Part shown: positions 5,998-15,843 of the stretch, piece by piece
Layout: every line of letters starts with the position of its first letter
Position numbering within the stretch: the first letter of the stretch is position 1
Source of the DNA: Thiotrichaceae bacterium
GTDB taxonomy: Bacteria; Pseudomonadota; Gammaproteobacteria; Thiotrichales; Thiotrichaceae
Direction: 5' to 3'
DNA length: 36,249 nucleotides
Assembly: GCA_015490895.1 (NCBI GenBank)
Contig: WFWY01000033.1
Span: forward strand, 1 to 36,249
Translations under genes and position numbers: made by a program
The notes under the pieces: generated by a model
The model's input: only the letters and a program-made list of their open reading frames with translations
Database searches by the model: none
Told to the model about the DNA's origin: nothing

Positions 5998-6912
5998 TCA
6001 CTTTATGACACTCCTGTGATTTTCGCCACGCCCCCTATTCCCGGACAAGCTCCCAGGTTGATAAGTCGTATTGGAGATAGCTTCTATCAGACGCAAATGC
6101 TTATTATCCAGATTGAGGACGCTGTCAACCCAAAAATTGACAATCGTATCCAGCTCCTGTCTGTTAACCGGAGAGAACTGTTGTACCATTTTACGCATGG
6201 ACTGAATACCCTGTTGCTGTTGTTGGCGCCTGGAAATAAATTGTAGCGTGGTTTTGTAACCCTGCCCTTGTGGGCAGACTCTATCAACAATATTCATTTC
6301 ATGCAGTTCATGTGCGCTGTATTCTCTACCACTGTAGATGATTTCTTCCGCGATATGGCTGGGTACACGCTGCCGCAAAAAAGTATACGCACCCATTCCT
6401 GGAAACAACCCGAAACGTGTCTCCGGAAAAGCAAACACCGCTTGTTCCTCAGCAATCATAATATTCGCTGCAAGCGCTGCTTCAAAGCCACCTCCCAGTG
6501 CCATTCCCCGAATAAGAGTAATGGTTGTTACGGGCAAATGATAATTACTTGCCAGTTGATAAACAAATTCGACAGAGTCTCTTGCATAGCTCTGCAACGC
6601 TGCTCTGTCATGGCGCCTGGCGCATTGATAAAAATATCGCAAGTCCCCCCCCAGGGAAAATATATCTGGAATATCAGAGCCCAGCACATGAAAACTCACA
6701 GATGTTTTTTTCGTCCGGTCAGCAGTAGCCGTCAGCAGCTCCTGTTGCACCGATAAAAACTGTGTGAGTAGATTTGGAGTAATTCGACAGGGGGCATCTG
6801 GTTTCAGAATGCTCCATAAAATACCCCCTGAAGACGGATTAAGGTAATTATTAAGTGCACATCGCTGAGCCCCGAACAAGTCGGTTTTTCCTTCAAAAGG
6901 TATGACTGTCAT
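5998..6912 (-). CDS. RpfF-like DSF synthase (crotonase superfamily)
   Basis: Probable enoyl-CoA hydratase-fold enzyme of the RpfF type. RpfF makes diffusible signal factor, a cis-2-unsaturated fatty acid, from 3-hydroxyacyl-ACP by dehydration and thioester cleavage. The 304-residue sequence keeps the oxyanion-hole segments SLGGDL (86-91) and ALGGGFEAAL (138-147). It also keeps both glutamates known to be catalytic in Xanthomonas RpfF (E141/E161 there), here E144 in GGFEAAL and E164 in PETRFGLFPGMGAY. The GLFPGMGAY segment and the later VDRVCPQGQG resemble RpfF more than FadB or PaaF enzymes. The C-terminus is slightly extended and basic. It diverges from an ACP-ketosynthase pair across a 257-bp region with a large palindrome. 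No RpfC, RpfG or RpfR receptor lies in the window. Family is secure; the exact product is inferred. Confidence 0.82.
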   Translation of the reverse strand: MTVIPFEGKTDLFGAQRCALNNYLNPSSGGILWSILKPDAPCRITPNLLTQFLSVQQELLTATADRTKKTSVSFHVLGSDIPDIFSLGGDLRYFYQCARRHDRAALQSYARDSVEFVYQLASNYHLPVTTITLIRGMALGGGFEAALAANIMIAEEQAVFAFPETRFGLFPGMGAYTFLRQRVPSHIAEEIIYSGREYSAHELHEMNIVDRVCPQGQGYKTTLQFISRRQQQQQGIQSMRKMVQQFSPVNRQELDTIVNFWVDSVLNLDNKHLRLIEAISNTTYQPGSLSGNRGRGENHRSVIK

Positions 6913-7024
6913 AGTTTTATTCTTAGTTCTTGTTAATGCCTGAGTGCCGAAAGCTGCATGGATGAAACATAGTCTGGCAGGTATCCCCTTTGTTACCTAC
7001 ATTCTGTCACCTAAGATAACAGTG

Positions 7025-7057
7025 ATTATTATTTACACAGGATTGTAAAATAATAAT
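7025..7057. promoter_or_regulatory. Large AT-rich palindrome, candidate shared operator
   Basis: Left arm ATTATTATTTACA (7025-7037) and right arm TGTAAAATAATAAT (7044-7057) are complementary except for one extra T, with spacer CAGGAT. An outer pair AGTGATT (7021-7027) and AATCACT (7069-7075) extends the symmetry. It sits in the middle of the divergent RpfF-like/ACP intergenic region. It contains TTTACA boxes facing both ways, so a dimeric regulator bound here could control both transcripts. No T-run follows, so a terminator is unlikely. Confidence 0.55.
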
Positions 7058-7060
7058 GAT
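7032..7060 (+). promoter_or_regulatory. Candidate sigma-70 promoter for the ACP-KS pair
   Basis: A -35-like TTTACA (7032-7037) is followed after 17 bp by a -10-like AATGAT (7055-7060), about 110 bp before the ACP start. It overlaps the palindrome at 7025-7057. The -10 box is a weak match, so this is tentative. A mirror TTTACA on the minus strand (7044-7049) could serve the RpfF-like gene. Confidence 0.35.
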
Positions 7061-7169
7061 ACCGATACAATCACTTAAGTTTAGAAGTGGTTAATTTTTA
7101 TCCTTAATAAAGGTCTTCGGGATACCGTTGATAACCAAAACTCACCTATACCCTACTACAAGGAGCACC

Positions 7170-7427
7170 ATGCTAACTCGCGAATTACTTGAGCAAAAAG
7201 TTATTGATATTGTGCAAGAGACACTTGCGCTGAATACGCCACCACGTCTGGAGGATTCTTTCAGAGCGGATCTTAATGCCGACTCTATTGATATCGTCAC
7301 ACTGCTAGTCAGTCTTGAAGATGAACTGGGAACACCCTTTGATCAAAATGCACTACAAGACAAGGATACACTGCTTTCTGTCGTTAATTTTCTTGATGAA
7401 TTATTACTACAGACTGAAAACGCATGA
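7170..7427 (+). CDS. Dedicated acyl carrier protein
   Basis: Small acidic carrier protein of 85 residues. The phosphopantetheine attachment serine is in LNADSIDIV (S39), with DSI where housekeeping ACPs have DSL. Acidic helix II residues (SLEDELGTPF) and the C-terminal helix NFLDELLL fit the four-helix ACP fold. The ATG at 7170 is preferred over one 42 bp upstream because AGGAG lies 5 nt before it and the product then has normal ACP length. The stop overlaps the ketosynthase start as ATGA. It differs clearly from the housekeeping acpP at 15537-15770, so it is probably a specialised carrier for the adjacent ketosynthase and perhaps for the RpfF-like enzyme. Confidence 0.9.
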   Translation: MLTRELLEQKVIDIVQETLALNTPPRLEDSFRADLNADSIDIVTLLVSLEDELGTPFDQNALQDKDTLLSVVNFLDELLLQTENA

Positions 7428-8794
7428 GCTCACAGTCATCAGAAGCATGCCGGGTGTTTATCTCTGGCATGGGCATGATTACTCCGCTCGGACTTGATCT
7501 TCACAGCAGCTGGCAACACATCCTGGAAGGTAAACCCTGTGCCAAAAAAATACCGCCACACTGGTATGATTATCTGGATTTCCGTTCCGGTATCTGGGCT
7601 CCCCTCCCCGACATGGATTTCATGTCACAGGGTTTTCGTCGTGCAGAAACCATACAGAATGATACTTCAACTTTGCTCGCCATCGTTGCAACACATGAAG
7701 CATTGCAACAGGCGGGAATCGAAACCGTACTGACTGATAAAAAACGCAACCAGTATCAGCTTGCTACTATTAATCCGGAGCGTTGCTCCGTCATCTACGG
7801 CACAGGATCTGGTGGTTCCTGCTCACTACTGACCAATTTCAGTTATCACGCTATTGCAACGTGTAAACAGAAACTTTCTGAAACAGAAGCCTGTCACGAG
7901 AGTGAAGCACTACAGACACTGTACCACCCGCCTACACTAAACCCTTTCGTTATTCCCATGTCCATCTGTAACAGTGTGCCGGCAGGGATAGGGATAAAAT
8001 ATTCTGTTCATAATGATGTACAACCCGTTGTGCAAGCCTGTTCATCAGGAACAACCGCTATCGGTGAAGCCTTTCGCAAGATTCGCTCCGGCCAGTCTGA
8101 TCTGGTGATCAGTGGTGGCATTGAGCATTTGAAGGATCATTGGGGAGCCAGCTATAAGGGTTTTGATCTTGCACGCACCCTGGCCATGATTCCTGCAGAC
8201 GGTAATATTGATGCAGCCAACCGACCCTTTGACAAGGATCGCAGTGGTTTTCTGTTTTCTCAGGGAGGTGGTGCCAGCCTGATACTGGAAAGTGAAGAAC
8301 ATTTGCTGAACCGTGGCGGCACAGCACTTGCAGAAATCGTCGGTTTCGCTGAAACTTTTGATGCCAGCTCAGTCATGGCACCCGAACAAAGTGGCACACA
8401 GATAGAGCGCATGATAAGAAAAGCGCTCGACAGCGCCGGTATTACAGCCGGTGATATTGGCTATATTAATGCACATGGTACAGGGACTGTTTCTAACGAT
8501 CAGGTGGAAGCTCGTGTTATTGAACGGGTCTTTGGAAGCCAGACACCGATTAATTCTACCAAGTCTATCATTGGTCATTCACTGGGTGGCAGCGGGGCAA
8601 TTGAAGCTGCTGTTTGTGTGCTGAGTATGCAAGACCAGGTACTACATGCATCATCTAACCTGGAGAACCCTATTGCAGCACTGGATTTTGTCACCACGAA
8701 GCGGGATACCAGCAGCACACCTGTTCACTATAGTTTTTCAGAGTCCTTTGCCTTTGGCGGTCATAACAGTGGCCTGGTTCTCAAACGTGTATGA
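7424..8794 (+). CDS. FabF-like beta-ketoacyl-ACP synthase paired with dedicated ACP
   Basis: Thiolase-fold condensing enzyme of 456 residues with a complete Cys-His-His triad: C206 in VVQACSSGTTA, H351 in NAHGTGT and H385 in SIIGHSLGGSG. The glycine-rich C-terminus FAFGGHNSGLVL is typical of KAS II and type II PKS ketosynthases. It is about 40 residues longer than the housekeeping FabF at 14215-15459. Extra sequence lies in two places: about residues 45-75 (a Trp/Asp-rich segment) and 105-175 before the active-site cysteine. The Cys-containing loop also differs (QACSSGTTAIGEA against [13 protein letters not shown]). It is translationally coupled to the ACP. Likely role: one or more decarboxylative condensations on that ACP. 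Substrate and product are unknown. Confidence 0.88.
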   Translation: MSSQSSEACRVFISGMGMITPLGLDLHSSWQHILEGKPCAKKIPPHWYDYLDFRSGIWAPLPDMDFMSQGFRRAETIQNDTSTLLAIVATHEALQQAGIETVLTDKKRNQYQLATINPERCSVIYGTGSGGSCSLLTNFSYHAIATCKQKLSETEACHESEALQTLYHPPTLNPFVIPMSICNSVPAGIGIKYSVHNDVQPVVQACSSGTTAIGEAFRKIRSGQSDLVISGGIEHLKDHWGASYKGFDLARTLAMIPADGNIDAANRPFDKDRSGFLFSQGGGASLILESEEHLLNRGGTALAEIVGFAETFDASSVMAPEQSGTQIERMIRKALDSAGITAGDIGYINAHGTGTVSNDQVEARVIERVFGSQTPINSTKSIIGHSLGGSGAIEAAVCVLSMQDQVLHASSNLENPIAALDFVTTKRDTSSTPVHYSFSESFAFGGHNSGLVLKRV

Positions 8795-8844: not shown

Positions 8845-8922
8845 TTAGGAGTCCCTTGTATTCAATCCGGTCGAACTTCATCTCACAGGAAAACAATTAG
8901 GACTTGATCAGAGTCTCCTTAA
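8845..8922. repeat. Family A inverted-repeat element, internally deleted copy
   Basis: Left end TTAGGAGTCCCTTG and right end GATCAGAGTCTCCTTAA are the ends of family A. The right arm (about 8877-8922) is a near-perfect complement of the left arm of the full copies, which shows the terminal inverted repeats are about 46 bp long. The central core found in the other copies is missing. It lies between the convergent ketosynthase and pilZ genes, and its last bases contain the pilZ stop codon. Confidence 0.75.
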
Positions 8923-9293
8923 TACGCCTGGTGTAATGCTGGCCGCTTGGCAAGATCACCCAGGTACGCTTCTATCGCTTTTTTAACATCTTCCCGGCTG
9001 TTACCGACAAATTGCAATCCAACACCGGGGTTATGACTGGCATGATGACTGGACTGAGGGGAAATCCAGACAACTTTGCCCGTAATAATCAGTTTCTTTC
9101 CACGATCAATAAACCGTAACACCATGGCAATCGTTTCACCAAATTGATAGGTACGGTCAGTGGGAATAAAAACACCGCCATGTTTAACAAAGGGCATATA
9201 GTGGGCATGGAGTGCGACTTTATCCCGGATGGATAGCTGGAGCAAGTCGCTGACCTCGGGTTTCTCTGCATCAATCACTGCTTCAGAATGCAT
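8919..9293 (-). CDS. pilZ: Type IV pilus assembly protein PilZ
   Basis: Small cytoplasmic PilZ-domain protein (124 residues) of the founding PilZ type, needed for type IV pilus biogenesis through PilB and FimX-type partners. The core reads LSIRDKVALHAHYMPFVKHG then GGVFIPTDRTYQFGE and ITGKVVWISPQ, which closely follow Pseudomonas PilZ as remembered. The RxxxR and DxSxxG c-di-GMP-binding motifs are absent, as expected for true PilZ. It sits 62 bp downstream of holB, the usual location. The C-terminus (ALHQAY then stop) runs into a family A repeat, which supplies the stop codon. No pilus genes are nearby. Confidence 0.92.
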   Translation of the reverse strand: MHSEAVIDAEKPEVSDLLQLSIRDKVALHAHYMPFVKHGGVFIPTDRTYQFGETIAMVLRFIDRGKKLIITGKVVWISPQSSHHASHNPGVGLQFVGNSREDVKKAIEAYLGDLAKRPALHQAY

Positions 9294-14214: not shown

Positions 14215-15459
14215 CTACATTTTTTTAAAGATAAGTGTTCCGTTTGTTCCACCAAAGCCGAAAGAGTTACTCATGGCAACATCAATTTTAGCGTCCCTGG
14301 CAGTGTTGGCCACATAGTCCAGATCACATTCCGGATCCTGGTTGTCAATATTGATGGTTGGTGGAAGTACCTGGTCGCGAATAGCAAGAATAGAAAAAAT
14401 TGCTTCAATACCACCTGCCGCACCCAGTAAATGCCCGGTCATGGATTTCGTTGAGCTAACAGCAACCTGCCTGGCGTGATCGCCCAATGCACGTTTCAGG
14501 GCAACGGTTTCAGCCACATCACCAGCCGGTGTTGAGGTGCCATGTGCATTAATGTAATCCACATCCTCAGGATTCAAGCCAGCATCTTTTAAGGCATGTA
14601 ACATGCAGCGTGCTGCCCCTTCACCATCCGTCGAAGGTGAGGTCATATGATAGGCATCACTACTCATACCAAAACCGGCCAGTTCGCAGTAAATATCAGC
14701 CCCCCGTGCTTTGGCAGACTCGTACTCTTCCAGCATAATCACGCCGGAGCCATCTCCCAGCACAAAACCATCACGGTCTTTATCCCAGGGGCGACTGGCA
14801 GCGACCGGATCATCATTGCGAGTTGACAGGGCACGGGCAGCTGCAAAACCGCCAATACCTAATGGCGTTGACCCCATTTCTGCACCCCCACAGAGGAAAG
14901 CATCTGCATCACCATAGCTAATCATTCTGGCAGCATCACCAATACTGTGTGTTGCTGTGGCACAAGCAGATACGGGAGAAATATTGTGACCTTTCAGGCC
15001 ATGCATGATAGACAAGTTACCGGCTACCATATTGACAATGCTGCTGGGGACAAAGAAAGGAGAGATACGCTTGGGGCCTTTTTCCAGAAAGACACTGTAA
15101 TTCCTTTCAATGGTACCGAGGCCACCAATACCTGAACCGACGATAACGCCGGTACGTGATGCATTTTCTTCGGTCACTTCAAAGTTGGCATCAACTATCG
15201 CATCCGTACCCGCTCCAATACCATAATGGATAAAGGGATCCATCTTTTTCTGGTCTTTGCGCTTGATATAATCATCGACCACAAAGTCTTTAACATTGCC
15301 CGCAATTTTTACACTAAAATCTGTGGTATCAAACAGATTATCACTGATGACATTAATACCACTTTTTCCAGCCAGAATATGACTCCAGGCTTTCTCAATT
15401 TTGGAACCGACGGGTGATACAATACCCAGTCCAGTCACTACAACGCGTCTCTTAGACAA
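14215..15459 (-). CDS. fabF: 3-oxoacyl-ACP synthase II (KAS II)
   Basis: Housekeeping condensing enzyme that elongates acyl-ACP with malonyl-ACP, including the step that adjusts cis-vaccenate content. The 414-residue product has the catalytic triad C166 ([12 protein letters not shown]), a histidine in [11 protein letters not shown] and another in [12 protein letters not shown], plus the [15 protein letters not shown] ending. Length is normal. It follows acpP by 76 bp and precedes pabB by 75 bp on the same strand. Confidence 0.97.
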
Positions 15460-15536: not shown

Positions 15537-15770
15537 TTATGCATTAGCGTTAATATAATCAACGGCTTTTTGAACAGTTGTGATTTTTTCTGCCTCATCA
15601 TCAGGAATGTCAGCATCAAATTCTTCTTCCAGAGCCATCACCAGTTCAACGGTATCCAGTGAATCAGCGCCCAAATCGTCAACAAACGAAGACTCTGCTT
15701 TCACCTCACTTATGTCAACATCCAGTTGTTCAGCGACGATTGCTTTTACACGGCTTTCAATATCACTCAT
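15537..15770 (-). CDS. acpP: Acyl carrier protein (housekeeping)
   Basis: Carrier of growing fatty acids, 77 residues and strongly acidic. The phosphopantetheine serine is S37 in [12 protein letters not shown]. The ATG at 15770 is chosen because AAGGAA lies 8 nt upstream and the product then begins [11 protein letters not shown] as in other ACPs; a longer frame adds nine unlikely residues. It lies between fabG (131 bp upstream) and fabF. The larger gap before it, with a palindrome, could hold an extra acpP promoter. Confidence 0.97.
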
Positions 15771-15843
15771 TGTTGTGTTCCTTAAAATTAAAATCAAAGT
15801 TTTGGCCAGATAAAGACTGTACCAGTAGATCCAAGTTGGCTAT

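Follow-up and report, generated by a model that had tools for sequence, protein, structure and literature searches.

An RpfF-type DSF-synthase homologue encoded beside its own acyl carrier protein and ketosynthase: a conserved variant of DSF-type loci

On the usual view, general fatty-acid synthesis supplies the material that is diverted into DSF signals, and how the type of chain and the timing are set has been left open. The synthase RpfF dehydrates and hydrolyses 3-hydroxyacyl-ACP drawn from the general fatty-acid synthesis cycle (PMC4542539), and a DSF review gives the same mechanism (PMC4504480). In Xanthomonas a specialised fatty-acid synthesis enzyme, the reductase FabG2, serves DSF synthesis and is described as a separate gene, XCC0416 (PMC5941067). 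The closest described loci are the Xanthomonas rpf cluster (rpfB/F/C/H/G) and rpfF/rpfR of Burkholderia and Cronobacter. No acyl carrier protein (ACP) or ketosynthase (KS) is described in rpf loci in the parts of the review that were consulted (PMC4504480), and we found no earlier report of an RpfF with a KS or ACP gene in the open-licence literature.

Here we analysed a locus from a Thiotrichaceae bacterium, lying in a stretch of 36,249 nucleotides (positions 1 to 36,249 of contig WFWY01000033.1) that is called the window below. The original prediction was that an RpfF-like crotonase with both catalytic glutamates faces an ACP gene and a KS gene coupled by ATGA, and coordinates, Pfam domains (ECH_1/ECH_2 for the crotonase, PP-binding for the ACP, N- and C-terminal ketoacyl-synt for the KS) and alignment all agree with it (Table 1). 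The crotonase gene is divergent from the two others, which overlap at this ATGA. The longest open frame of the ACP starts at a TTG at position 7128 and would encode 99 residues; the ATG at 7170 is preceded by AAGGAG 5-6 nt upstream and gives a frame that reaches the KS start as ATGA, so we take the shorter, 85-residue length to be right. Housekeeping acpP and fabF genes lie elsewhere in the window, also as predicted. Neither promoter nor terminator scans gave a signal above chance, and this holds for the promoter-like matches between the divergent genes.

Table 1. Features of the locus and the housekeeping genes used for contrast (window positions)
Feature	Position	Strand	Remarks
RpfF-type crotonase (DSF-synthase homologue)	5998-6912	-	304 aa; E144/E164
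Divergent intergenic region	6913-7169		A+T-rich; should hold both promoters
Dedicated ACP	7170-7427	+	85 aa; DSI motif
FabF-like ketosynthase (KS)	7424-8794	+	456 aa; C206-H351-K380-H385; ATGA overlap with the ACP gene
Housekeeping fabF	14215-15459	-	Outside the locus, for contrast only
Housekeeping acpP	15552-15773 (match)		In the window, outside the locus

Like the Xanthomonas cluster, the locus has an RpfF-type synthase and, in relatives, an RpfC-like kinase and RpfG; in one family (f82) rpfG, a gene for a GGDEF protein with RpfC-like input, and rpfC converge on the synthase as they do there. It differs in adding an ACP and a KS, which in f82 are in the synthase operon and elsewhere mostly divergent from the synthase, as well as in the lack of any rpfB seen in the loci with all three genes (the trio) and of rpfC or rpfG near the trio within the window. 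With rpfF/rpfR it shares the RpfF-type synthase, but the sensors linked to the trio are RpfC-like rather than PAS-GGDEF-EAL proteins, and ACP and KS are present. The parallel with FabG2 is that of a specialised fatty-acid enzyme for DSF synthesis; here, instead of a reductase encoded apart, a condensing enzyme and a carrier are linked to the synthase.

A gene for a PilZ-domain protein (8919-9293) separates the KS gene from holB in the window, an order kept in the sister species G003. Since pilZ is commonly found next to holB in gammaproteobacteria, this gene is probably no part of the locus. The interval between pilZ and the trio in G003 (L093:1050-1593) encodes a toxin of YafQ/ParE-like type and an HTH antitoxin, both absent from the window.

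The identity of the crotonase was assessed by comparison with solved chains, family models and phylogeny. Its best match among these chains was to RpfF (3m6m, E 2e-43). In the alignment the conserved glutamates of RpfF pair with E144 and E164, and both glutamates are present in every crotonase homologue of a trio. The protein scored 187 bits against the NCBIfam RpfF equivalog model (cut-off 550) and 275 bits against the broader PRK08788 model (cut-off 177), which makes it a homologue rather than an equivalog of the Xanthomonas enzyme. An AlphaFold model built from two sequences reached a pLDDT of 37 and was left unused. In the tree, trio crotonases fell inside the RpfF group and apart from other crotonases (split support 99-100), clustering away from the degradative CoA hydratases. 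Their three clusters (f1 with f131, f82, and f91) agree with the tree of the KS, and those of f82 were placed among RpfF genes without a KS. Trio crotonases were not one clade in this tree, although a single trio clade was not rejected (AU p 0.29). Our results support the window crotonase as an RpfF-type DSF-synthase homologue, for which enzyme activity on acyl-ACP is predicted.

The KS belongs to a discrete family beside FabF. It scored 317 bits against the NCBIfam fabF model, below the cut-off of 494, and searches with a KS profile gave 415-936 bits for the family's members at 20 loci versus at most 242 for any FabF. Across 369 genomes of the class the profile showed a sharp gap: 6 further genomes scored 485-594 bits, and the remaining matches, all FabF, did not exceed 242. 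A tree of 20 KS and 28 FabF proteins showed a fully supported split, with the window KS outside the housekeeping FabF clade. The predicted structure (pLDDT 86.7) has the thiolase fold of a plain FabF (TM 0.93 to P. aeruginosa FabF), and the KS shares with FabF the C-H-K-H residues, conserved in 20/20 KS, the gating Asp and the GG loop. Unlike FabF, it has 456 residues, and around residues 130-170 it carries a helical insert specific to the family, which lies in the least certain part of the model. It also departs from FabF in pocket residues, for which the active-site Cys of the FabF in the window served as the reference point for numbering. Phe133 of FabF, which like the Ile108 position we take to belong to the acyl pocket, corresponds to Val176 in the window KS; the Phe202 position is kept across the family. 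Ile108, a gating residue in FabF (PMC7138838), corresponds to Ser129 in the window KS, to Ser also in G003, and to Phe, Leu, Ala, Met or Ile in the other KS, depending on the clade. These differences suggest that chain preference may have changed. The KS is not of the type II PKS KS/CLF kind: there is a single KS gene, and the loop-2 Asp that is replaced by Asn in actKS (PMC7138838) is kept as D313.

With family-wide searches added, the KS-family loci numbered 20, in four gammaproteobacterial families: the window's own family f1 (own genome G000 and G003), f131 (n=2), f82 (n=4) and f91 (n=12). Among 397 other genomes across the phylum no member of the family was found. A search of contigs with the KS returned nearly exclusively ordinary FabF and one true relative, L013 (CAMATU010000137.1); this contig is titled as a Klebsiella pneumoniae MAG, its genes group with f91, and the label is probably wrong. 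In a plasmid collection the matches were FabF-like only, with less than 60% identity among the best matches listed.

The original prediction named conservation of the trio in relatives as a test, and the trio is conserved: an RpfF-type gene adjoins the KS and ACP genes in 17/17 loci with enough contig, in all four families. The other three loci are those of G165, L178 and L182, which lack enough contig. The L178 contig begins within the KS, and that of L182 about 250 bases ahead of the ACP. In G165 the ACP and KS genes lie at the end of one contig and an RpfF-type gene, pointing outwards, at the end of a second, consistent with a split locus. Wherever the sequence ahead of the KS is present (19/19 loci), the gene immediately before it is that of the ACP, the two often overlapping by 4 bases, and every one of the 19 ACPs keeps the serine. 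The crotonase gene is mostly divergent, as in the window; in f82 it is downstream of the KS and ACP genes on the same strand, and in G441 it shares their strand and lies past the kinase gene. All seven KS-bearing genomes among the 369 of the class were also among the 68 bearing RpfF (Fisher p 6e-6, a value that ignores kinship). Distances between crotonases and between KS were correlated (r 0.89 overall, 0.79 within f91), as expected if both were inherited together. The trio is kept across the four families despite differing outer neighbours, and its presence in every readable locus implies more than a chance grouping.

Two loci deserve separate mention. Among 35 RpfF loci without a KS, an ACP was detected only in that of G050: a standard-type RpfF directly followed by a free-standing ACP gene (L095:8964-10345). 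An RpfG-like gene lies upstream of them, and the arrangement may be a half-way form. In G125, IS3-type transposase-like fragments sit right beside the trio (L138:6859-7647) and might be relevant to any spread of the trio from one lineage to another.

We then considered how a signal from this locus could be perceived. The window holds no receptor gene, as had been stated, and the suggestion that sensing is encoded elsewhere agrees with the window's own genome, in which an RpfC-like kinase is found on another contig (C106). Most relatives, by contrast, have a receptor-like kinase close by. At 15/20 loci, a count that includes L178, a hybrid sensor kinase of RpfC-like type (TM-HisKA-HATPase-REC-Hpt) is encoded no more than ~2 kb from the KS; in f91 its gene mostly follows that of the KS immediately and in the same orientation. 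In their input region these kinases match those encoded next to standard RpfF genes, and an RpfG-like gene adjoins the kinase in 4 loci (G373, G116, G855 and G856). In G116 rpfG and rpfC are separated by a gene (L142:3992-5137) for a GGDEF protein whose membrane input region is RpfC-like, with a likely counterpart at L180 4300-4950; Xanthomonas rpfH is the input domain alone. The GGDEF protein is a possible, putative direct DSF-to-c-di-GMP receptor.

The window crotonase is the only RpfF-type gene found in its own genome, the other match being FadB-like. The C106 kinase, with membrane input, HisKA, HATPase, REC and Hpt domains, precedes sucA/sucB, and no RpfG was found in this genome. G005 has a kinase at the same place together with a standard RpfF. 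The lineage of the C106 kinase is the one its family normally pairs with standard RpfF, so that the kinase is a candidate partner of the trio. Three other species of the genus (G001, G002, G004) have neither an RpfF-type nor an RpfC-like gene, and among 57 relatives the two occurred together in 11 and were both missing in 43, with exceptions of 2 and 1. In G003, which has the trio, no RpfC-like kinase was detected in the 570-contig assembly. It looks as if the window's lineage kept the family receptor and carries a different synthase set.

Taken on genomic grounds, the link of the locus to DSF-type signalling is strong. Linkage of RpfF to RpfC is, however, known without KS or ACP, so the kinase linkage alone is no proof that KS and ACP serve the signal. 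The reading we prefer, to which we give a probability of roughly 0.62, is that the trio is a DSF-type signalling locus in which the dedicated ACP and KS build or channel the 3-hydroxyacyl-ACP precursor. The predicted supply of the RpfF-like enzyme by a carrier and a condensing enzyme of its own gains support from the conservation of the trio and the grouping with RpfF; what the enzymes do chemically, and what is gained from a private ACP and KS, we infer. The KS would condense malonyl units with an acyl chain on the dedicated ACP and would set the chain length. No dedicated ketoreductase was found in the window locus, so reduction of the 3-oxo group would have to fall to a shared FabG. The RpfF-type enzyme would then take the 3-hydroxyacyl chain from the dedicated ACP, dehydrate it to the cis-2 enoyl form and hydrolyse this to a free fatty-acid signal, the private ACP keeping the intermediate from FabZ and FabI. 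In the window's own genome the C106 hybrid kinase would be the receptor. A KS acting before the synthase is, we infer, the most economical order. A more specific version of this reading is possible and held only tentatively: a self-contained factory whose private ACP, KS and RpfF-type synthase make a lineage-specific cis-2-enoic acid, the KS pocket setting the chain and hence the 'dialect' to which the linked RpfC-like kinase responds.

The same genes would also fit the opposite order, with the KS acting after the RpfF-type enzyme. The cis-2-enoyl chain would then remain attached to the dedicated ACP for further elongation or condensation, and the product would be an unusual signal or lipid, unsaturated or of greater length. 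FabB, for comparison, acts on cis-3-decenoyl chains, and Ser129 and Val176 in place of the FabF Ile108 and Phe133 might allow the KS to take bulkier chains. We consider this order unlikely, as hydrolysis of the thioester is part of the activity of known RpfF enzymes (PMC4542539) and the locus has no further reductase or release enzyme.

That the locus makes a structural lipid or a small metabolite instead of a signal, the kinase adjoining it in relatives sensing something else, appears quite improbable. The window without a receptor and G003 without a detected kinase would be in line with it. Against it stand the 15/20 loci whose kinase input resembles that of kinases linked to standard RpfF, four of them also with RpfG, and the presence of both RpfF-type and RpfC-like genes in the window's own genome and G005, with neither in G001, G002 and G004. 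Ordinary duplicates of fatty-acid synthesis genes standing by chance beside a degradative crotonase, a reading to which the plain FabF fold of the KS would lend itself, are highly improbable given the discrete KS clade, the position of the crotonase outside the CoA hydratases and above all the conservation of the trio in four families with different outer neighbours, which refutes it.

The locus with its RpfF-type synthase, private ACP and KS is a real and conserved variant of DSF-type loci that has apparently not been described before. With a carrier and a ketosynthase of its own, and tied in several families to an RpfC-like receptor, it offers a direct test of whether a dedicated synthase set encodes the identity of the signal, and points to signals not yet seen.
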